From: Pectinatus brassicae
GTDB taxonomy: Bacteria > Bacillota > Negativicutes > Selenomonadales > Selenomonadaceae
Direction of reading: 5' to 3'
Length of the DNA stretch: 64,000 bases
Assembly (NCBI RefSeq): GCF_014201835.1
Contig: NZ_JACHFH010000013.1
Location: 1-64,000 of the forward strand
Part shown: one piece after another, positions 1,614-12,738 of the stretch
Position numbering within the stretch: position 1 is the stretch's first letter
How the letters are laid out: each line of letters begins with the position of its first letter
Notes under the pieces: generated by a model
Databases searched by the model: none
Seen by the model: the letters and a program-made list of their open reading frames with translations, nothing else
What the model was told of the DNA's origin: nothing
Program-made: the position numbers and the translations under genes

Positions 1614-3203
1614 TTAATTGGTAAGGAGATCATATGCAACAGATAATTTTCTAAATGCGGTGCTAAGTTGTTGCTCGTTAGGTTGTCGTTCAAGGGAATA
1701 AAGAATATATGAACGAACATCATTTAAATTAAACCTCTGTATATAACGACATACCGTAGCATCTTTTTTTTGAATAGTGTCATTTGCAGACATAATGGAG
1801 GTAATCGTTGCTTGTAAGTCAGTACTTATTAAAGTTCCAGGGTGTGATATTATATTGGCAATTGTATCAGTTAAAGGTAATCTTTTTAATAAGCGAGTTT
1901 TTTCGAATGTTTCCAATTCGCTATTTTCAATATTTGTTTGTGTTAAGTATTTTAACTTTGGATAATTCCCATTTAATGTTAATATGAATCTTAAGGCTAT
2001 AGTAATATCTATCTCTTTATTAGTAACGTAATCTTTAATATAGTTTTTGAGTGTGGGGATTGTGATTTCTGTTTCTTTCCCTACAGACACGACCCAGTTT
2101 TGACTACATAGTTCTTCTGGATCAGTAGGTAAGTCTTTTATTCCCATAAAAATTTTATCTAAAGAACCTTTTTGCCCCTTAGTAACAATTAAGTCTTTGA
2201 TAACATGTTGATATCTTCTGAGTTCTATTGGAGTTACGCCTTGATCGATTTCTGCTAATTTATTATATATGCTGGAATAATTATTTGTTTTTATAAGTGT
2301 GAAAAAACATTGAAAATCATCTGAAAAGATAACATTTTCATGGATGTTATCTCCGGCTGATTCATCATATTGAATAATAATGAGTTTTTGCCGTAGTTGT
2401 GTTTTTTCGTGATTACCTAATGACGATATGAATGATTTTAAAATATGACGAATATTTTCATCGGTAAGGGAGTATCCTAAAAATATAATCGGAGAATGTA
2501 GCATTTCTGAAATTATTTTTGCACTAATCAGAACAGAGTGTTTTTCAAATGTTAAATAATCATCTTTGGTGAGTACCAATGAATTTGGTTCAGAAATACA
2601 TCCATGTATTTTAAATAGTTCGGCATAACCAAGAGTTGCTTGGAAAAGTCCATTTTGGCCAATATACGTAGCAATAGAATGGTTATTTTGGTTATATGAA
2701 GTCTCAATAAAATTATCATAATTTGTTGTAAAAATAAGTCGAGTTTTAAGAAGAAGTTTTTGAAAAGCCTCTAATTCTGTTTGTATAGTTGGTTCATTTT
2801 TTATTTGTAGTCGCGAAAAGTTATTTGATAAATATTTCTTAAATGGAGAAAGGTTTTCTCTAAAAGCCATTTCTTGTGATAATCCATCAATAGGGAGTTT
2901 TTCATCAAAAAATAGATTATCGATATTTTTACCGATAATTTGTGCAGCTTCAGTATTTAGTTCAAAGCGAAGAGCATCTTCTTGTAATGTAGGTTTTTTA
3001 GTTAATATATCTTTTTTTAATTTATTTAATTCTGCGAAAAAATCATGACCATCACTCTGGAGTTTCCAAAGGGCATTCAGTAATTCTTCCCAAGAGGGAT
3101 AGTCCACAATATATCTTTTGGATAGTCCTGCGCCGATAAATAAAATAGGGAATTCATTTGCGTCTCTCAATATATCAAATATGGATACTTCACTTGTACT
3201 CAA
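1614..3203 (-). CDS. SIR2-family protein, probable antiphage NADase
   Basis: 529 residues. The N-terminal half is a SIR2-like NAD-binding domain: FIGAGLS near residue 22, the FTTNYDNFIE motif near 160, KIHGC near 198 and IFLGYSLTDENI near 240. These follow the SIR2_2 layout found in bacterial defence proteins that hydrolyse NAD+ upon phage infection (DSR, ThsA and similar). The C-terminal 200 residues match nothing I recognise and may be a sensor. Start is TTG at 3203, preceded by AAGGGG ten bases upstream. No HerA or TIR partner is adjacent, so it would act alone. It lies between an integrase and the att site, a usual cargo position. The SIR2 fold is clear; the defence role is inferred. Confidence 0.8.
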   Translation of the reverse strand: MSTSEVSIFDILRDANEFPILFIGAGLSKRYIVDYPSWEELLNALWKLQSDGHDFFAELNKLKKDILTKKPTLQEDALRFELNTEAAQIIGKNIDNLFFDEKLPIDGLSQEMAFRENLSPFKKYLSNNFSRLQIKNEPTIQTELEAFQKLLLKTRLIFTTNYDNFIETSYNQNNHSIATYIGQNGLFQATLGYAELFKIHGCISEPNSLVLTKDDYLTFEKHSVLISAKIISEMLHSPIIFLGYSLTDENIRHILKSFISSLGNHEKTQLRQKLIIIQYDESAGDNIHENVIFSDDFQCFFTLIKTNNYSSIYNKLAEIDQGVTPIELRRYQHVIKDLIVTKGQKGSLDKIFMGIKDLPTDPEELCSQNWVVSVGKETEITIPTLKNYIKDYVTNKEIDITIALRFILTLNGNYPKLKYLTQTNIENSELETFEKTRLLKRLPLTDTIANIISHPGTLISTDLQATITSIMSANDTIQKKDATVCRYIQRFNLNDVRSYILYSLERQPNEQQLSTAFRKLSVAYDLLTN

Positions 3204-3376: not shown

Positions 3377-3423
3377 TGGAGCTGGCAATAGGAATTGAAC
3401 CTACGACCTGATCATTACGAATG
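3377..3423 (-). repeat. att site: duplicated 3' part of tRNA-Thr
   Basis: 47 bases identical to 26742-26788, the 3' part of tRNA-Thr(CGU) from the anticodon arm to the encoded CCA. The copies diverge after GAATG. This is the direct repeat expected at the far end of an element integrated into the tRNA gene. It serves as the right end of the left element and the left end of the right element. Confidence 0.88.
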
Positions 3424-3468
3424 CGGGTAATTGTGTTTTGTAGTATTTTTATATAGTTAAAAAAAGTT

Positions 3469-3601: not shown

Positions 3602-3682
3602 TTGGTAAATAATAACCAAAAAAAGTATTGTTAAAATCAATATGATATGATATTATCTATTTATAAGGTTATTTACAACCAA
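3602..3682 (+). promoter_or_regulatory. promoter of the RM operon with flanking inverted operator-like repeats
   Basis: TTGTTA (3628-3633), 17 bases, then TATTAT (3651-3656) form a sigma-70 type promoter. It is bracketed by TTGGTAAATAATAACC (3602-3617) and, inverted, GGTTATTTACAACCAA (3667-3682). The pair suggests an operator for a repressor of the RM genes. No controller gene lies next to it. Confidence 0.5.
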
Positions 3683-3722: not shown

Positions 3723-5375
3723 ATGAGTACTAATCAAATGATTGAAAAAGCTAGAGAAGCATATCTTGAAATTTTTAATGTTTTACGGAGCACAATGGAT
3801 ATAGATGAAGAGACAATATTTTCATTTTATGAATATCTGAACAAAGATAGATATTCGCTAAAAGATAGAAAATTTATTAAAGACCTAAAAGATAATGCTG
3901 AAATTGATAAAATTATCTATAAATACGGCAAAGATGTTTTTGAAAGTGGTATATGGGATGCACTGAGCAATAATTCCAGTAAGAAAAATTCCACATTTTT
4001 GACATCTGATGCTTTGGTAAAATTGTCATTAGCAATTTTAAATATCCAAAAAAGTGATAAGGTAATTGATTTATGTAGTGGTATAGGTAATTTTTTTAGA
4101 TTGGGAAGTATGATTGAATCCAAAGCTTTTTACCAAGGAATAGAAATAAATACACAAGTAGTCGAATGGTCGAAAATGATTTGTGAAAAATTAAAGGCAA
4201 AAGTGAGTATTGAACAGGGAGATGTTTTGAGATGTGTTCTTGAAAATAAATTTAGTAAGAATTTTGATAAGGCATTTTCAAATCATCCAATAGGAATAAG
4301 AATAAGAGAAAGTTTAGATATCTTGCAAACGTTACTCCCGGATGCGCAAGGACTTGGTAATATGAGAGGAATGTCATCAGAATGGTTGTATGTAGCTGCA
4401 TTGTTAAAAACTATTAAAAATACAGGTAAAGCAGTAGCTGTTATGCCAGATGGACCTTTGTTTTCACCTAAAGATATAAATATTCGCAAATGGTTTTTTG
4501 AACAAGGCTATTTGGAAACTGTTATTTCGTTGCCAGCTAAAATGCTGATTAATACTGTAATGCCTGTTAATTTAGTGGTTTTAAGTCATGATAATGCTAA
4601 AGTTAGAATTATTGATGCCAGTGATATATGTAATAAGGGACGTCGATATAATACGCTTAGTGACAAAAATATTGATGAGATTATTTTGCTATTAAATACA
4701 AATACTGAACAAAGTAAAGAGATAGATAGTAAGGATTTTGAAGATAATGAGTATGAGTTAAATCCATCGAGATATTTTGTTAAAGAATTTAAGTTTGAAA
4801 ACGGTGTAATATTTGGTGATATTATTAAAAATATTACTCGTGGAGCTCAAATTAAAGCTATAGACTTAGATAAAATTACAGTTGATGAAGAAACACCATA
4901 TCATTATTTACAACTATCAGATATTAGTGATGGAGTTATTAATGAAAAATTACCATATATTACCGAAATTGAAGCTAAGCAAGATAAATATTGTGTAAAA
5001 TCAGGAAATTTAATTATGTCTAAGATAGGACAGCCTAAATATAAATTTGCAATAGCCGATGTTCCAAGAAATAAAAAAATATTAGCTAATGGAAACCTAT
5101 TTATAATTGATATTAATACAGAAGTAGCTGATCCATATTATATCAAAGCATTTTTTGAAAGCAATATAGGAACAGCATTGTTACAAACTATCACTGCTTC
5201 AAGCACTATTCCAACAATAAGTATTGATAAGTTAAAAAAAGTAGTTATTCCACTTCCTGATATGTATAAACAACAAAAAATTGCAAAGAAATATAAAGCT
5301 ATTTTAGATGATGTATTAGCGTATAAAAAAAAGAAAATAGAAGCTATAGATAAATTAAAAAATATTTTTGAATAA
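3723..5375 (+). CDS. HsdM-like N6-adenine methylase domain fused to an HsdS-type half subunit
   Basis: 550 residues. Residues 1-100 are helical, like the HsdM N-terminal domain. A methyltransferase domain follows, with an SAM motif VIDLCSGIGNFF (114-125, in place of DPACGSGG) and SNHPIG at 186-191 where the catalytic NPPF/Y should be. The later HsdM block GPLFSPKDINIRKWFF is kept. From about residue 365 the protein resembles a target recognition domain of HsdS (HYLQLSDISDGVI, SGNLIMSKIG, STIPTISIDKLKKVVIPLP) and ends in a coiled tail. The changed NPPF motif suggests lost or altered catalysis, so it may recognise or regulate rather than methylate. It precedes a canonical HsdM by 90 bases. The fusion and motif changes are seen; the role is inference. 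Confidence 0.75.
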   Translation: MSTNQMIEKAREAYLEIFNVLRSTMDIDEETIFSFYEYLNKDRYSLKDRKFIKDLKDNAEIDKIIYKYGKDVFESGIWDALSNNSSKKNSTFLTSDALVKLSLAILNIQKSDKVIDLCSGIGNFFRLGSMIESKAFYQGIEINTQVVEWSKMICEKLKAKVSIEQGDVLRCVLENKFSKNFDKAFSNHPIGIRIRESLDILQTLLPDAQGLGNMRGMSSEWLYVAALLKTIKNTGKAVAVMPDGPLFSPKDINIRKWFFEQGYLETVISLPAKMLINTVMPVNLVVLSHDNAKVRIIDASDICNKGRRYNTLSDKNIDEIILLLNTNTEQSKEIDSKDFEDNEYELNPSRYFVKEFKFENGVIFGDIIKNITRGAQIKAIDLDKITVDEETPYHYLQLSDISDGVINEKLPYITEIEAKQDKYCVKSGNLIMSKIGQPKYKFAIADVPRNKKILANGNLFIIDINTEVADPYYIKAFFESNIGTALLQTITASSTIPTISIDKLKKVVIPLPDMYKQQKIAKKYKAILDDVLAYKKKKIEAIDKLKNIFE

Positions 5376-5465: not shown

Positions 5466-6980
5466 ATGGCTACTAGTACAACTAATGTAGGTTTTGAGGA
5501 ACAATTATGGCAGGCTGCTGATAAATTACGTTCAAACATGGATGCTGCTGAATATAAACATGTAGTTTTAGGGTTAATTTTTCTAAAGTATGTGTCTGAT
5601 GCTTTTAAAGAAAAATATGATCAGTTAAAGGCTGAAGGTTATGGTGATGAAGAAGATCGTGATGAATATCTTGCAGACAATATTTTCTGGGTGCCTAGGG
5701 ATGCAAGATGGGAAAATATAAAAGCACATGCTACCAATACAGATATAGGTGAAACAATTGATAATGCTATGGAGGCTATTGAGAAAGAAAATGATTCGTT
5801 AAAGAATATTTTAACCAAGAATTATTCTCGTCGTGAACTAGATAAGACTAGACTTGGTGAATTAGTAACATTGTTTACAAATATAGATGTGGGAACAAGT
5901 GCAGCACAGGAAAGAGATGTATTGGGTAGAGTATACGAATATTTTCTAAGTAAATTTGCATCAGCAGAAGGCAAATTGGGGGGGGAATTCTATACGCCAT
6001 CATGTATTGTACGTACTTTGGTAGATATGATAGAACCGTTTAAAGGACAAATTTTTGATCCGGCTTGTGGGTCTGGTGGTATGTTTTGTCAGTCGGCTCG
6101 TTTTGTAAAGGAGCACCAAGGCAATATAAGAGATATTTCTATTTTTGGACAGGAAAGTAATCCTACTACCTGGAAATTGGCTAAAATGAATCTTGCGATT
6201 AGAGGTCTTGAAGCAAATCTAGGCAAACATAATGCAGATTCATTTCATGATGATCAACATAAAACATTAAAAGCAAATTACATTTTAGCTAATCCGCCTT
6301 TTAATATATCAGATTGGGGCGGCGAAAGATTGCAAGAGGATGTTAGGTGGTCTTATGGAATTCCGCCAGTTGGTAATGCAAATTATGCATGGTTACAACA
6401 CATGCTTCATCATTTGAATCCTGTCGGAGGTGTTGCAGGTACTGTATTAGCAAATGGTTCTTTAAGCTCGAATACATCGAATGAAGGTGAAATTAGAAAG
6501 AATATGATAATTGGTGATGTTGTAGAATGTATTGTTTCTATGCCTGGTCAACTTTTCTATTCCACAGGTATCCCAGTTTCTCTTTGGATAATGAGGAAGG
6601 GAAAGACTAGTGCAGCAAAAGGAAAAATACTTTTTATAGATGCTCGGAACCTTGGATTTATGGTTGACCGTAAGGTTAGAGAACTATCAGAAGATGATAT
6701 AAAAAAAATTGCTTCTACATATCAGAATTGGAGGCATGGAAAAGATTATGAGGATATTCAAGGATTCTGTAAATATGCAACTTTGGAAGACGTTGCAGAA
6801 CAGGATTATATCCTAACTCCTGGTAGATATGTCGGTATAGCAGAGCAGGAAGATGATGACGAGCCATTCGAAGAAAAGATGACAAGACTTACTTCAGAAC
6901 TTTATGATTTGTTTGATGAATCTCATAAACTAGAAGATGAGATCTGTAAAAAGCTTGCTGCTATTGGCTATAGTAAATAA
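5466..6980 (+). CDS. hsdM: type I restriction-modification methyltransferase subunit HsdM
   Basis: 504 residues. The N-terminal HsdM helical domain ([13 protein letters not shown] to LKYVSDAF, 10-47) is followed by the N6-adenine methyltransferase domain, with the SAM motif DPACGSGG (198-205) and catalytic NPPF (276-279), both intact. The end is a long acidic region (DDDEPFEEK) and helices that contact HsdS. With HsdS it forms an M2S methylase modifying adenine in a bipartite site; with HsdR it restricts unmodified DNA. The length is normal for the family. A GGGGG run nine bases before ATG is the only ribosome site seen. Confidence 0.95.
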
Positions 6981-7068: not shown

Positions 7069-8034
7069 ATGAATCAAGAGATCATTAACTCAGTTATGTA
7101 CCAAATGAATCGGTTTTTAGATAATCAACAACTTATGGAACTAAAGAGAGTTCTGGAAAATGTCATTAATAAAGAGGAAATAAGTGAAGATGATTCCTTT
7201 GAACTTTTGAAGCGTTTCATATCAACAAAGAAGCTCGAAGGACGTTCAGATAAGACTCTGAAATACTATAAGAGTACCGTTGAGAAAATGTTATTGGTAG
7301 TAGATAAAAATGTTAAGGCTATTACAACAGACGATTTAAGGGAATATCTTACAGATTATCAAAGTAGATCAACGGTCAGTAAGCAAAGTGTTGATAATGT
7401 AAGACGGAATCTTTCAAGTTTCTTTACTTGGCTTGAGGATGAGAATTATATACTGAAAAGCCCTGTTAGAAGAATTCACAAGATTAAGACAACCTCTCCG
7501 GTTAAAGAAACGTATACTGATGATGAGATGGAGAGACTTAGAGATTCCTGCAAGGAAATCAGAGATTTAGCGATGATTGATCTTTTATCATCAACAGGTA
7601 TGAGAGTTGGTGAGTTGGTTTTGCTTAATCGAGATGATATAGACTTCAACGAACGAGAATGCATTGTACTTGGTAAAGGTGATAAAGAGCGAAGGGTATA
7701 CTTCGACGCGCGGACAAAACTTCATCTTCAGGAGTATTTGAAAAGTAGATCAGATACTAATCCGGCATTATTCGTTGGATTAAGAGCACCGAATGAACGA
7801 CTTGAAATTGGTGGCGTTGAAGTCAGAATTCGTAAGCTTGGAAGAGATATAGGCATTAAGAAGTGCCATCCCCACAAATTCAGAAGGACAATGGCAACAG
7901 TAGCAATAGATAAAGGAATGCCAATAGAGCAAGTGCAGAAACTCTTAGGGCATGAGAAGATAGATACGACTCTTCACTATGCAATGGTGAAGCAGAGTAA
8001 TGTAAAGAATGCACATAGAAAATACATTGGGTAG
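7069..8034 (+). CDS. tyrosine recombinase inside the hsd locus
   Basis: 321-residue XerC/D-like recombinase with a very strong ribosome site (AAAGGAGG, spacing 10). The N-terminal SAM-like domain (about 45-145) is followed by the catalytic domain with Arg in TGMRVGELVLL, Lys in GKGDKERRV, HKFRRT, LGHEKIDTT and Tyr in LHYAMV. Recombinases in this position between hsdM and hsdS usually invert or shuffle hsdS segments and change the recognition site. Here only one full hsdS follows, eleven bases away, so a partner would have to be elsewhere (or be the TRD of the gene at 3723). It is not the integrase of the element. Confidence 0.9.
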   Translation: MNQEIINSVMYQMNRFLDNQQLMELKRVLENVINKEEISEDDSFELLKRFISTKKLEGRSDKTLKYYKSTVEKMLLVVDKNVKAITTDDLREYLTDYQSRSTVSKQSVDNVRRNLSSFFTWLEDENYILKSPVRRIHKIKTTSPVKETYTDDEMERLRDSCKEIRDLAMIDLLSSTGMRVGELVLLNRDDIDFNERECIVLGKGDKERRVYFDARTKLHLQEYLKSRSDTNPALFVGLRAPNERLEIGGVEVRIRKLGRDIGIKKCHPHKFRRTMATVAIDKGMPIEQVQKLLGHEKIDTTLHYAMVKQSNVKNAHRKYIG

Positions 8035-8045
8035 GTGATAACGAA

Positions 8046-9179
8046 ATGAATTATTGTGAGATGCAATTGGTGGATGTAGTTAATATAAAAACTGGAAAAC
8101 TTAACTCGAATGCAGCCGTTGAAAAGGGCGAATATCCTTTTTATACATGTGCTCCTTCTCCGTTGAGAATAGATAAGTACAAATATGATCAAGCAGCAAT
8201 ATTACTTGCAGGAAATAATGCTGAAGGCAATTTTCATATTAACTATTTTGAAGGCAAGTTTGAAGCATATCAAAGAACTTACATTATTGATTCTAAAAAT
8301 GAAGATAAGTATGACTTGAAGTACCTTTTTTATGCGCTAAAAGAATGTTTGCATGAATTTAAATTAATGTCACAAGGAACATCAACAAAGTTCTTAACAA
8401 TGGCGATTTTGAATGGGTTTAAATTAAACATACCGGACATAAATGAGCAAAGGAAAATTGCAGGTATATTGTCTAGTTTGGATCAGAAGATTTCAAATAA
8501 TGAAGCGATAAATAGGAATTTATTGGATCAAGGAAGAGTTTTATATGAAGAGTTAATAGCAGGTTATGAGGTAAATTCAAAACTTGGTGACTTAATAAAG
8601 AGTATTGAAACGGGTAAAAGACCTAAGGGAGGAGCACAAGAGGTTGGTGTTCCTAGTATTGGTGCTGAAAAGATAGAGTGTTTTGGTGTTTATAATTATT
8701 CGACTGAAAAATTTATTGACGATGACTTCTATCGAAATTTGAAAAAAGGACACGTCTTATCTGGTGATGTGTTGCTTTATAAAGACGGTGCTTATACAGG
8801 AAAAACATCTATGGCTTTAGATGGATTTCCACATGAAAAGTGTGCGATAAACGAACATGTATATAAGTTGAATACTCTAAATAATTTATACCAGTTCTTT
8901 CTTTATTTTACTCTGGATAATGATAAAATTAAGGATTACATTTATACGTTAGCATCAAGTAAGGCTGCGCAACCCGGGTTAAATCAAAATGAACTTCGCA
9001 GTGTTGATATAGTGTTGCCAGAAGAATCGGTTTTATTAGAGTTTGAAAATAGAGTATCAGACATGATGCACTTAATTGCTTCGAATGCAAAAGAGAGTAG
9101 GAGTCTTTCGATTATTAGAGACACTCTTCTGCCTAAGCTTATGTCAGGTGAATTGGATGTTTCAGAATTAGAAGTTTAG
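8046..9179 (+). CDS. hsdS: type I restriction-modification specificity subunit HsdS
   Basis: 377 residues with two target recognition domains. TRD1 is about 5-135 (GEYPFYTCAPSPLRIDKY to LNGFKLNIPDINEQRKIAGILSSLDQKI) with a central conserved helix. TRD2 is about 182-335 (LGDLIKSIETGKRPKGGAQ to LRSVDIVLPE) with the distal helix after it. Each TRD reads one half of the bipartite DNA site and the helices set the spacing. TRD1 begins almost at the N-terminus, somewhat shorter than average, and GEYPFYT is the form seen in Bcg-like and type I TRDs. A TAGGTGAT ribosome site precedes ATG. Confidence 0.93.
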   Translation: MNYCEMQLVDVVNIKTGKLNSNAAVEKGEYPFYTCAPSPLRIDKYKYDQAAILLAGNNAEGNFHINYFEGKFEAYQRTYIIDSKNEDKYDLKYLFYALKECLHEFKLMSQGTSTKFLTMAILNGFKLNIPDINEQRKIAGILSSLDQKISNNEAINRNLLDQGRVLYEELIAGYEVNSKLGDLIKSIETGKRPKGGAQEVGVPSIGAEKIECFGVYNYSTEKFIDDDFYRNLKKGHVLSGDVLLYKDGAYTGKTSMALDGFPHEKCAINEHVYKLNTLNNLYQFFLYFTLDNDKIKDYIYTLASSKAAQPGLNQNELRSVDIVLPEESVLLEFENRVSDMMHLIASNAKESRSLSIIRDTLLPKLMSGELDVSELEV

Positions 9180-9374: not shown

Positions 9375-9686
9375 GTGATTACTTCTAAGATAATTGATCT
9401 TTGCGAAAACATAAAGCAAAAGGCGATAAATTATTTGAAACATATTGATGATCAAACCATAGAAACGAGAATTTATAGTGAGAATAGACAGCCAAATGTT
9501 CAGCAGAAAAAATTAATTTCTGATTTTTTAGAGGGTAAAGCTGATAATCCATTACCAGGTTGTTCACTTTTTATTTTAAGGATACGAAATAATATGTTTC
9601 ATGGGCTTAAGGATATATATACACTTAACGAACAACAAGAAATGTTTATCGGGATCAACTCATTTTTAAAATTCATATTAAAATAA
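9375..9686 (+). CDS. HEPN-like protein, C-terminal part
   Basis: 103 codons from GTG, in the same frame as 9231-9371 and separated from it by one stop codon and CAA. The end reads LFILRIRNNMFHGLKDIY. RNNMFH is the Rx4H motif of HEPN ribonucleases, many of which cleave RNA in toxin-antitoxin, Abi and RM-linked defence. There is no ribosome site of its own, so it would need read-through or re-initiation after the TGA. It lies between hsdS and hsdR, where anticodon nucleases and other RNA-cleaving effectors are sometimes kept by type I RM systems. Confidence 0.6.
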   Translation: MITSKIIDLCENIKQKAINYLKHIDDQTIETRIYSENRQPNVQQKKLISDFLEGKADNPLPGCSLFILRIRNNMFHGLKDIYTLNEQQEMFIGINSFLKFILK

Positions 9687-9708
9687 CATATGAAAGGATG
9701 TGAAAACA

Positions 9709-12700
9709 GTGTCTGTTAATGAAAATACATTAGAACAAGCTATTATTTCAGAGTTACAGGAAAAGGGTTATGAATATGTATATGGCCCAGACATCGACAG
9801 AGATTATCATGAGGTAATCTTAGAAGATTGCTTTCGAGCATCAATGTTAAATATAAATCCAGGCATAACTCAAGAGATAATTTCTGAAACATATAAAGAA
9901 ATTAAGAACCTAGGGCTTTTAAGAGCTGAAGATCTAAATGCATCATTTCATAAGTATATTGTGGAAGGAGTGCCAGTACCATATCAGAAAGATGAAGAAA
10001 ATCGTACATTTACTGTAAAATTAATAGATTTTGATAATCCATCTGCAAATGATTTTAAGGTCGTAAATCAATATACGATTATTGAGTATAAGAATAAACG
10101 TCCAGATATTTTGGTATTTATCAATGGAATACCCATGATTCTTTTTGAATTAAAAAATATGGCTAAAGATAACACTACAGTTGAACAAGCATATATGCAA
10201 GTTAAAAATTATCAACTGGATATTCCAATCTTGTTTAATTACAATGCCTTTAATGTTATTAGTGACGGTATTGATACTAGGGTGGGAACTATTACATCTG
10301 ATTATACTCGCTATATGGCATGGAAATCAGAGAATGGTGAAAAGCCCGCAGAAAATTCGACGGATTTTTTTACAATATTACTTAATGGAATGTTTCCTAA
10401 AGAACGATTGTTGGACATAATCCGTAATTTTATTGTGTTTCAGGATATTCAAGGAAAAACTATAAAAATATTAGCGGGCTATCATCAGTATTTTGCAGTG
10501 CGTAAGGCAGTGCAAAGAACCAGAATAGCATTAGAAGAAAATAGTCATAAAGTTGGTGTTGTTTGGCATACTCAGGGTAGTGGTAAAAGTCTTTCCATGG
10601 TATTTTATTCTGGATTGGTTGTGAGTAATCCAGAATTTGAGAATCCAACTATCGTTGTGCTTACTGACCGTAACGATTTGGACAATCAGCTCTTTGGAAC
10701 TTTCAGTGCTAGTTCAAAGCTGCTTCTTCGTCAAATACCGAAACAGGCAGAAAGTAGAGAGCATTTAAAAGAATTGCTGAAGGTTAAGGCTGGCGGAATT
10801 ATATTTACGACTATTCAAAAGTTTGAAGAAAACGATGATATTATTAATGACCGTAGTAATATTATTTTTATGGCAGACGAAGCACATCGTTCTCAATATG
10901 GTACGGAAGCTAAATTTGATAGAGAAACTGGTGAGTGGAAATATGGGATGGCAAAACATATGCGTGATGCTCTTCCAAATGCTACATTTATTGGTTTTAC
11001 TGGAACGCCAATCGATATGAAGGACAAATCAACAATAGAAGTTTTTGGTAAATACATAGATATTTATGATATGACACAGGCTGTTGATGATGGTGCAACT
11101 GTACCAATTTACTATGAAAATAGAACCCCAAAATTGAAGCTTAATGAAGAAGTTTTGAAACAAATAGATGACGAATATGCAAGATTAGTTGGCGAGTCTA
11201 CAGAAATTGAAATTGAAAAATCAAAAACTGATCTTTCAGGTATTGAAGCTGTTGTTGGTTCGTCAGATCGTATTAACATGCTGGCTAATGATATTATAGC
11301 TCATTATGAGGATCGTCAGTATGTTTTGACTGGTAAGGCTATGATTGTTTGTATGACCCGTCGTATTGCAATAAATTTGTACAAGACATTATTAGAAAAA
11401 CGTCCTGAATGGAATAAAAAAGTTAAAGTGGTTCTTACATCTAGCAATCAAGATCCAGAAGATTGGCATGATATCATTGGGAATAAGGCATACCGTGATG
11501 GCTTAATGATTGAATTCAAAGATAACGACAGTGATTTTAAGATTGCTATAGTTGTAGATATGTGGTTAACAGGATTTGATGTCCCCTCAATGGCAACAAT
11601 GTATATTGATAAGCCAATGAAGGGACATACATTAATGCAGGCTATAGCTCGTGTAAATAGGGTGTATAAAGATAAAGAAGCTGGATTGATAGTAGACTAT
11701 ATTGGAATGGCGGCAGAATTGAAGATTGCTTTAAATCAGTATACTAAACGTGATCAGGATAAGGTGCCGGATCTTAATGTTGTATATTCTATTGCTATGG
11801 CGAAATTAGAAGTTATGCGCGATATGTTCTATGGATTTAATTATAGTAGTTTTTTTGGAGAATCTGATATACAGCGGTTAAAAGTGATTGCTGATGGTGT
11901 TGAATTTGCTCTTGGATTTGAAGAAGATGAATCAAAAGAATATATTAGAGAAGCAACTGCATTAAGTCAAGCAGAAACGCTTTGTCGAAGTCTTATAGAT
12001 GATCATGATAAAAAAGAAATTGAATTTTTTAAATGTGTAAAAGCAGGAATCTGCAAAGTTGGTGGTAAGGGTAAAATTACATCGAATGAAATTAATGCTC
12101 GTATTATAAATATGCTTGAACAAGCTATTGAACAAGATGGTGTAGTAAATATTTTTGAAAAATCTGGGCAAAAAAATCCAGAGATTTCTTTATTATCAGA
12201 TGAATATATGGACCAGGTGCGTAAGATGAAGCATAAAAATATAGCAGCAGAAATGTTGCGTAATCTATTAGAAGACAAAATTAAAGTGTTTTCAAGAACA
12301 GGTATTGTAAAGGCACAGCTTTTTTCTGAAAAAATGAAGAATGTACTTAAGCGATATAATAATAGGATGGTAACAAGTGCAGAGGTCATTGAGGAACTTT
12401 TAAATCTTTCCCAAGAAATAGCAAAAGCATACGCTGCTGGAGAGGTGAAAGGTTTAAGCCCAGAAGAACTAGCATTTTATGATGCTCTTGTCGCTGATCC
12501 AGAAGTACTTAAAAATATGGAAGATTCAACACTTGTTGAAATGGCTCATGAGCTAACAATACTTATCCAAAAAAGTAGAACTGTTGATTGGGATAAAAAA
12601 CAATCAGTGCGGGCTTATATGCGCACTCAGATTAAACATTTGCTGCGTAAATATAAATATCCACCTGAACAAGCAAAAAATGCAATTGATACAGTTATTA

Positions 12701-12738
12701 AACAGGCAGAGTTAATGAGTGAAAACATGATTATATGA
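9709..12738 (+). CDS. hsdR: type I restriction enzyme subunit HsdR
   Basis: About 1009 residues. The N-terminal endonuclease domain of PD-(D/E)XK type shows RPDILVFINGIPMILFELKN (Asp...Glu-x-Lys). It is followed by a superfamily 2 translocase with Walker A HTQGSGKS (about residue 287), MADEAHRSQYG (DEAH), FTGTPI, and the C-terminal helicase lobe (LTGFDVPSMATMYIDKP, QAIARVNR). The C-terminal third is helical and docks on HsdM/HsdS. It cleaves DNA after ATP-driven translocation when the site is unmethylated. A GTG at 9700 also opens the frame, but AAAGGA (9694-9699) overlaps or touches it; GTG at 9709 has proper spacing, so I prefer 9709. Confidence 0.93.
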   Translation: MSVNENTLEQAIISELQEKGYEYVYGPDIDRDYHEVILEDCFRASMLNINPGITQEIISETYKEIKNLGLLRAEDLNASFHKYIVEGVPVPYQKDEENRTFTVKLIDFDNPSANDFKVVNQYTIIEYKNKRPDILVFINGIPMILFELKNMAKDNTTVEQAYMQVKNYQLDIPILFNYNAFNVISDGIDTRVGTITSDYTRYMAWKSENGEKPAENSTDFFTILLNGMFPKERLLDIIRNFIVFQDIQGKTIKILAGYHQYFAVRKAVQRTRIALEENSHKVGVVWHTQGSGKSLSMVFYSGLVVSNPEFENPTIVVLTDRNDLDNQLFGTFSASSKLLLRQIPKQAESREHLKELLKVKAGGIIFTTIQKFEENDDIINDRSNIIFMADEAHRSQYGTEAKFDRETGEWKYGMAKHMRDALPNATFIGFTGTPIDMKDKSTIEVFGKYIDIYDMTQAVDDGATVPIYYENRTPKLKLNEEVLKQIDDEYARLVGESTEIEIEKSKTDLSGIEAVVGSSDRINMLANDIIAHYEDRQYVLTGKAMIVCMTRRIAINLYKTLLEKRPEWNKKVKVVLTSSNQDPEDWHDIIGNKAYRDGLMIEFKDNDSDFKIAIVVDMWLTGFDVPSMATMYIDKPMKGHTLMQAIARVNRVYKDKEAGLIVDYIGMAAELKIALNQYTKRDQDKVPDLNVVYSIAMAKLEVMRDMFYGFNYSSFFGESDIQRLKVIADGVEFALGFEEDESKEYIREATALSQAETLCRSLIDDHDKKEIEFFKCVKAGICKVGGKGKITSNEINARIINMLEQAIEQDGVVNIFEKSGQKNPEISLLSDEYMDQVRKMKHKNIAAEMLRNLLEDKIKVFSRTGIVKAQLFSEKMKNVLKRYNNRMVTSAEVIEELLNLSQEIAKAYAAGEVKGLSPEELAFYDALVADPEVLKNMEDSTLVEMAHELTILIQKSRTVDWDKKQSVRAYMRTQIKHLLRKYKYPPEQAKNAIDTVIKQAELMSENMII

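Follow-up and report, generated by a model that had tools for sequence, protein, structure and literature searches.

What is the role of a methyltransferase relative that is encoded first in a type I restriction-modification (RM) operon and has altered catalytic motifs? The question is raised by a 550-aa protein of Pectinatus brassicae (assembly GCF_014201835.1), encoded in the 64,000-nucleotide stretch of contig NZ_JACHFH010000013.1 that was analysed here and is called the window. We use the name MS for this pseudo-methyltransferase/half-S protein, the product of the open reading frame (ORF) 3723-5375. An earlier sequence-only reading had described an HsdM-like domain with DLCSGIGN and NHPIG at the motif positions, joined to half of an HsdS and standing first in an operon with canonical HsdM, HsdS and HsdR. 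Pfam, alignment and a structural model bear out the architecture, and annotation bears out the position in the operon. That reading had also listed a DNA-reading regulator among the roles MS might have, and this proposal is now strongly supported: the promoter of its own operon carries bipartite palindromes that are conserved and specific to the MS family. We consider it very probable that MS is an autorepressor acting on its operon through a bipartite operator; both the binding and the sign of the regulation are what we infer from these patterns.

Interrupted palindromes at MS promoters

In the window, two candidate operators 63 bp apart bracket the promoter upstream of MS (Table 1). The chance expectation of GGTT-N6-AACC in 310 bp is 0.003, as calculated from 25 sites per 2.85 Mb genome. 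Interrupted palindromes were first noticed while the upstream regions of MS genes were being read. They were counted in 32 MS loci, from which near-duplicates (L017, L066, L070) and loci with a doubtful MS (L081, L082, L083, L087) had been excluded. A dyad search of the 32 upstream regions, with 4-mer half-sites and spacers of 2-14, placed GGTT-N6-AACC at the top (12/32 loci), whereas in 100 shuffles the leading dyad, whatever its type, reached a mean of 6.3 and a maximum of 9 loci. Around MS starts, 12.8 kb contain 18 perfect sites, whereas the other 580 kb of these loci contain 10. The relaxed form NGTW-N6-WACN occurs 33 times, in 23 of the 32 loci, where 1.1 sites are expected. This form was picked post hoc, and a scan across spacers and cores serves as its control: at spacers of 2-5 and 7-12 the NGTW palindrome is found at 0-2.5 fold, and other cores at N6 give at most 18 sites.

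The half-site varies with the clade. It is TGTT in L022, L024, L025 and L026, AGTT in L023, GGTA in L071 and L059, AGTA in L019 and TGTA in L078, and Lactococcus plasmids have an AGTA-type palindrome with a spacer of 7. The exact half-site is shared with the nearest neighbour by target recognition domain (TRD) in 13 of the 23 operator-bearing loci; the shuffled mean is 7.9, and 34 of 2000 shuffles are as high. In 17 of these 23 loci a promoter with at least 10/12 matches lies within 20 nt of an operator, and in 15 the operator overlaps the promoter or ends no more than 4 nt away.

Core promoters of this strength are more in keeping with repression than with activation, which is why autorepression by an MS dimer is proposed. 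Two MS chains would pair through the C-terminal helix, like truncated HsdS halves, and each TRD of the dimer would read one half-site. Bound beside the -35 and just past the -10, MS would block RNA polymerase and thereby limit transcription of its own operon, including hsdM, hsdS and hsdR. Right after entry of the element into a new cell, expression would by default be high, and it would drop as MS accumulates. The available part of PMC3874165 describes half-S proteins that lack the second TRD, pair with themselves and read an interrupted palindrome (EcoR124I delta-50, GAA N7 TTC; EcoDXXI; NgoAV). The layout of NGTW-N6-WACN is that of a target for a type I half-S homodimer.

From the operator one can find the gene. 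A query made of DNA only, namely an operator, TTGAC close behind it and a second operator, gave one match in 2.9 million viral contigs, and this was on a contig with an MS gene. A control with other half-sites gave five matches in the viral contigs, and in the DNA examined none of them had an MS gene. In genome_contigs the query found 45 stretches, 21 of them at an MS gene: 19 point towards MS, and in two from Macrococcus MS is on the opposite strand. These 21 represent 20 distinct cases, L104 and L114 sharing their MS; L094 is the viral contig again, and L068 and L130 are one contig. The recorded hosts of the genome_contigs matches include Treponema, Sphaerochaeta, Fibrobacter, Saccharibacteria, Erysipelothrix, Macrococcus, Helcococcus and Veillonella. 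When the 380 class genomes were searched for an operator with a promoter, 13 sites came up, 11 of them at MS genes. Nine of these genes were already known (counting L064, where the operator stands ahead of the preceding gene). The other two, L156 and L157, were new: very degenerate MS proteins heading type I operons, which the profile had missed at E<=1e-50.

A proposed half-S reader on a degenerate methyltransferase

Residues 79-354 of MS match Pfam N6_Mtase (E 9.5e-28), a domain present in 16/16 homologues, and residues 411-542 match Methylase_S (E 2.9e-5) in one stretch, unlike the two TRDs of HsdS. The AlphaFold2 model has a mean predicted local distance difference test score (pLDDT) of 82.3 and is weak at residues ~29-49 and 81-91. 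In the model, residues 2-353 have the HsdM fold (VIA Z 31.9 to 3lkd), and residues 351-550 form a TRD and a helix that match 8vsq (Z 20.1, rmsd 2.5 over 189). HsdM_N gave no Pfam match in MS at E 0.1; the low-pLDDT N-terminus of the model superposes on 3lkd from residue 2. No helix-turn-helix (HTH) family is among the Pfam and NCBIfam matches of MS at E 0.1. Against the NCBIfam MADS models, MS stayed below the curated cut-offs, with 43.4 bits for mad2 (cut-off 720) and 44.6 bits for mad5 (cut-off 400). According to the Pfam and structure matches, MS combines a methyltransferase and a single TRD in one chain, as single-chain M~S methyltransferases do. This architecture is supported by engineered M-half-S fusions, which give active enzymes in the portion of PMC6158711 that was available.

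In alignment, DLCSGIGN and NHPIG stand where the adjoining HsdM has DPACGSGG and NPPF. In a single alignment, NPP[FY] is found in 25/25 HsdM rows but in only one of 39 MS rows (L072). The other MS rows have NHPI, DYPF, HAPF, DFPW, EPPY, VPPF and other forms of motif IV, and in a set of 16 MS rows, mostly operator-found, NYPF is commonest and NPPF occurs in none. We read this variation as lost constraint on catalysis with the local fold retained, and the motifs suggest that MS does not methylate. The sequence-only reading had called MS probably non-methylating, and the family-wide degeneration of motif IV supports it. It had also named homologues with intact NPPF, together with proven methylation, as evidence to the contrary; 38 of the 39 rows are without NPPF, and L072 remains as the exception. 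As a means of telling new function from decay it had looked to conservation of NHPIG. The residues vary among homologues, so that NHPIG as a new conserved catalytic motif was rejected, but decay is disfavoured as well.

Distribution of MS and alternative explanations

Relatives of MS were found in 9 of 189 genomes of the family to which the window belongs (E<=1e-25, its own genome counted). Profile A1 at E<=1e-50 detects MS in 18 of the 380 class genomes and in 12 of a sample of 398 from the phylum; both counts include the window genome. In the plasmid collection there are relatives in Subdoligranulum (39%), Lactococcus (26%) and Sulfuricurvum (25%); a first scan of genome_contigs with the window MS protein gave no relative. 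By annotation of the surroundings, MS precedes hsdM-hsdS-hsdR in many loci, and its partners are of unrelated subtypes. L079 and L080 have MS proteins that are 72% identical, with HsdM at 29% and HsdR at 24%, whereas in L074 and L075 HsdM and HsdR are 70% identical and MS 27%. On these comparisons MS moves between RM types. In the Subdoligranulum plasmid L015, hsdM has shrunk to an N-terminal fragment of 94 aa that lies between MS and hsdS, which indicates that MS can outlast hsdM.

Specificity domains are the variable part of ordinary type I systems. Pairwise comparison of 12 close MS proteins gives a mean identity of 39.5% for the TRD, 28.6% for the methyltransferase domain and 19.2% for the N-terminal part. 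Judged by these identities the TRD is the best-conserved domain of close homologues, opposite to normal specificity subunits. The idea of a target shared by the MS TRD and the local HsdS was rejected, since blastp of MS TRDs against the 25 HsdS proteins of these loci gave only weak, mostly non-local matches; among the matches listed, L015 alone was from the same locus (24%).

Some loci differ in composition. In L111, from a Fibrobacter metagenome-assembled genome (MAG), two distinct HsdM genes and hsdS come after MS, as in M1M2S systems. In L156 and L157, several small genes and a 306-aa gene precede hsdM. The identical MS locus of L104 and L114 comes from MAGs labelled Crenarchaeota and Syntrophomonadaceae, probably through mis-binning.

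Could MS still be an active methyltransferase, the palindromes being its methylation sites and autoregulation depending on their methylation? Many relatives have NYPF with a fair S-adenosylmethionine (SAM) motif (DxCCGxGxF), and catalysis might still be possible with Asn and an aromatic residue. However, many homologues have D, H, E, V, I, R or another residue in place of Asn, others have I, L or M in place of the aromatic residue, and the window MS has H and I at those positions. The 5' half-site NGTT would also offer a type I enzyme no A on the strand to be methylated. The retention of NPPF in L072 could be cited in favour, but this locus is without operator. We regard continued methylation as unlikely. 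A working part in the RM machine, as a decoy or a second specificity core that would compete for HsdR or guide it, is quite improbable, even though MS retains the HsdM fold and sits in the operon. The sequence-only reading had proposed such a competitor for HsdM/HsdR or a partner in a modified RM scheme, and positive evidence for either did not emerge in this analysis. MS stands beside hsdM and hsdR of unrelated subtypes or without hsd genes, its TRD is conserved rather than diversified, and GGTT-N6-AACC is not clearly avoided in the window genome (25 sites, 33 for the reversed control).

Another regulator might instead bind the palindromes, MS being just the first gene downstream and acting otherwise. 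In favour of this, a ~180-aa protein adjoins MS in many loci (L020, L021, L023, L026, L027, L029, L069, L073, L074, L092, L096, L102, L116 and others), usually between MS and hsdM and sometimes before MS. Its model (pLDDT 84) has an N-terminal helix and an alpha/beta domain, with no match in the PDB at E<=0.001, and four members scanned had no Pfam match; it is possibly a co-regulator. Its gene is absent from the window, L015, L022, L025, L065 and L068, and no other gene is common to the operator loci. The operator accompanies MS genes across phyla, and an N6-interrupted palindrome is the target expected of a homodimeric half-S. Since binding by MS is itself deduced, a separate regulator keeps a small probability. 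Decay of a duplicated hsdM-hsdS fusion would account for the lost catalytic motifs, but it is extremely improbable and was rejected: the frames are full-length in distant phyla, the TRD and operator are conserved, and the position in the operon recurs.

Several observations weigh against autorepression by MS. An operator abutting the -35 could also serve activation, and the covariation of half-site with TRD similarity is modest. In the window itself, operator 1 departs from the palindrome at one position and the promoter reaches 9/12 matches. The NGTW-N6 palindrome was not found at -250 to +60 in 9 of the 32 loci; in one of these, L064, it lies at -532. Of the genome_contigs matches, 24/45 were not counted as MS and are mostly repeats or chance, L123 among them having a possible MS cut off by the contig end. 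Two operator-plus-promoter sites in the class genomes (G117, G189) are without an MS gene, although the reversed control gave 9 matches in the 380 genomes, which puts these two at background level. Finally, the sequence-only reading had asked whether MS always accompanies hsdM-hsdS-hsdR. It often does, but hsd genes are absent from the stretch fetched around MS in L028, L065, L067, L068, L078 and L086, among others, so that RM control is not its sole setting. Four of the 25 GGTT-N6-AACC sites of the window genome, besides the window's own, were inspected as trans targets and had no clear promoter.

The picture that emerges is of a widespread candidate regulator with an explicit operator. If autorepression by MS is true, it would give a clear example of how an RM enzyme has turned into a transcription factor, and the target of a TRD would be readable from the genome without a methylome. 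Much more tentatively, MS may belong to a class of bacterial transcription factors derived from type I methyltransferases. In these the half-S TRD pair would be the operator clamp, and the dead methyltransferase, often with a SAM motif, might be a sensor of SAM level or of DNA state at infection that ties RM expression to the state of the cell; MS away from RM genes might control other genes.

The window operon and known systems

The type I RM operon of the window is headed by MS, followed by hsdM, a recombinase gene, hsdS, a small ORF and hsdR (Table 1).

Table 1. Features of the MS operon and its upstream region (window positions).
Feature	Position	Strand	Basis
Operator 1 (candidate), GGTAAATAATAACC, one mismatch to GGTT-N6-AACC, 10 nt upstream of -35	3604..3617		
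Sigma-70-like promoter TTGTTA-17-TATTAT, extended TG, 9/12 matches	3628..3656	+	consensus match alone
Operator 2 (candidate), GGTTATTTACAACC, perfect GGTT-N6-AACC, just past -10	3667..3680		
MS ORF, 550 aa, ATG start, proposed autoregulator	3723..5375	+	ORF, Pfam, model
Degenerate N6-methyltransferase domain, residues 79-354	3957..4784	+	Pfam
SAM motif DLCSGIGN of MS	4068..4091	+	alignment with HsdM
Motif IV NHPIG of MS, NPPF replaced	4281..4295	+	alignment with HsdM
Single TRD of MS, residues 360-510	4800..5252	+	Pfam, model
C-terminal helix of MS, residues 514-546 in model, proposed dimerisation coil	5253..5372	+	model
hsdM, canonical	5466..6980	+	Pfam, alignment
XerA-type tyrosine recombinase, between hsdM and hsdS	7069..8034	+	Pfam, NCBIfam
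hsdS, two TRDs	8046..9179	+	Pfam
103-aa ORF, between hsdS and hsdR	9375..9686		ORF call
hsdR	9700..12738	+	Pfam, NCBIfam

The recombinase gene adjoins hsdS, an arrangement known from invertible hsdS loci; around the window hsdS a second S fragment was not found, and inverted repeats there are weak only. The 103-aa ORF contains RNNMFH (RX4H, HEPN-like by eye), and at the equivalent position L015 and L016 have a DUF3800-like gene. Divergent from the operon is a gene for a SIR2-domain protein (1614-3203, minus strand) with a PADLOC match to PDC-S25 (514.9 bits). At 3378-3426 there is by eye a tRNA-like 3' remnant (GGCAATAGGAATTGAACCTACGACC), possibly an old attachment site, where ARAGORN finds no tRNA. 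The window genome holds a second MS-hsdM-hsdS-hsdR operon (L019, 8015-16385, C17), the MS of which is ~26% identical.

Among known proteins, HsdM (3lkd; EcoR124I M, 7bst; PacII M1/M2, 7vru) shares the methyltransferase fold of residues 2-353. MS differs in that motif IV, and often motif I, is degenerate, a TRD is fused and the proposed role is transcriptional. The top Foldseek match (E 7.5e-22) is PDB 7eew, the V. vulnificus intact methyltransferase, which we take to be dimeric. It too has a methyltransferase and one TRD per chain, and VIA aligns 427 residues of the MS model to it with a large domain shift, but according to its title it is a methyltransferase. Esub1 (PDB 8vsq; 8vsr with Prx), for which the literature search found no paper, matches the TRD and helix of residues 351-550 but is without a methyltransferase part.

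Type I operon repressors unrelated to MS are already known; none built from HsdM or HsdS, and no published account of MS, was found in the literature searched, from which subscription journals and preprints were mostly absent. RptR, which the available part of PMC12255303 describes as conserved across gammaproteobacteria, is likewise encoded by the first gene before a type I RM locus and represses a shared promoter through palindromes overlapping the -10. Unlike MS, it is described there as a small helical protein that reads TAGCTA, without a methyltransferase or TRD. In Mycoplasma gallisepticum, a type I C protein is encoded upstream of hsdM, S and R and apparently represses the operon, but it belongs to the C protein (HTH) family (PMC12707154, in part). 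The same portion of that source covers the type II methyltransferase-repressors Ecl18kI, SsoII and EcoRII, where, as proposed for MS, a methyltransferase chain regulates RM promoters. In these a transcription factor domain is fused on and the methyltransferase is active, whereas in MS the TRD is the proposed reader and the methyltransferase looks dead.
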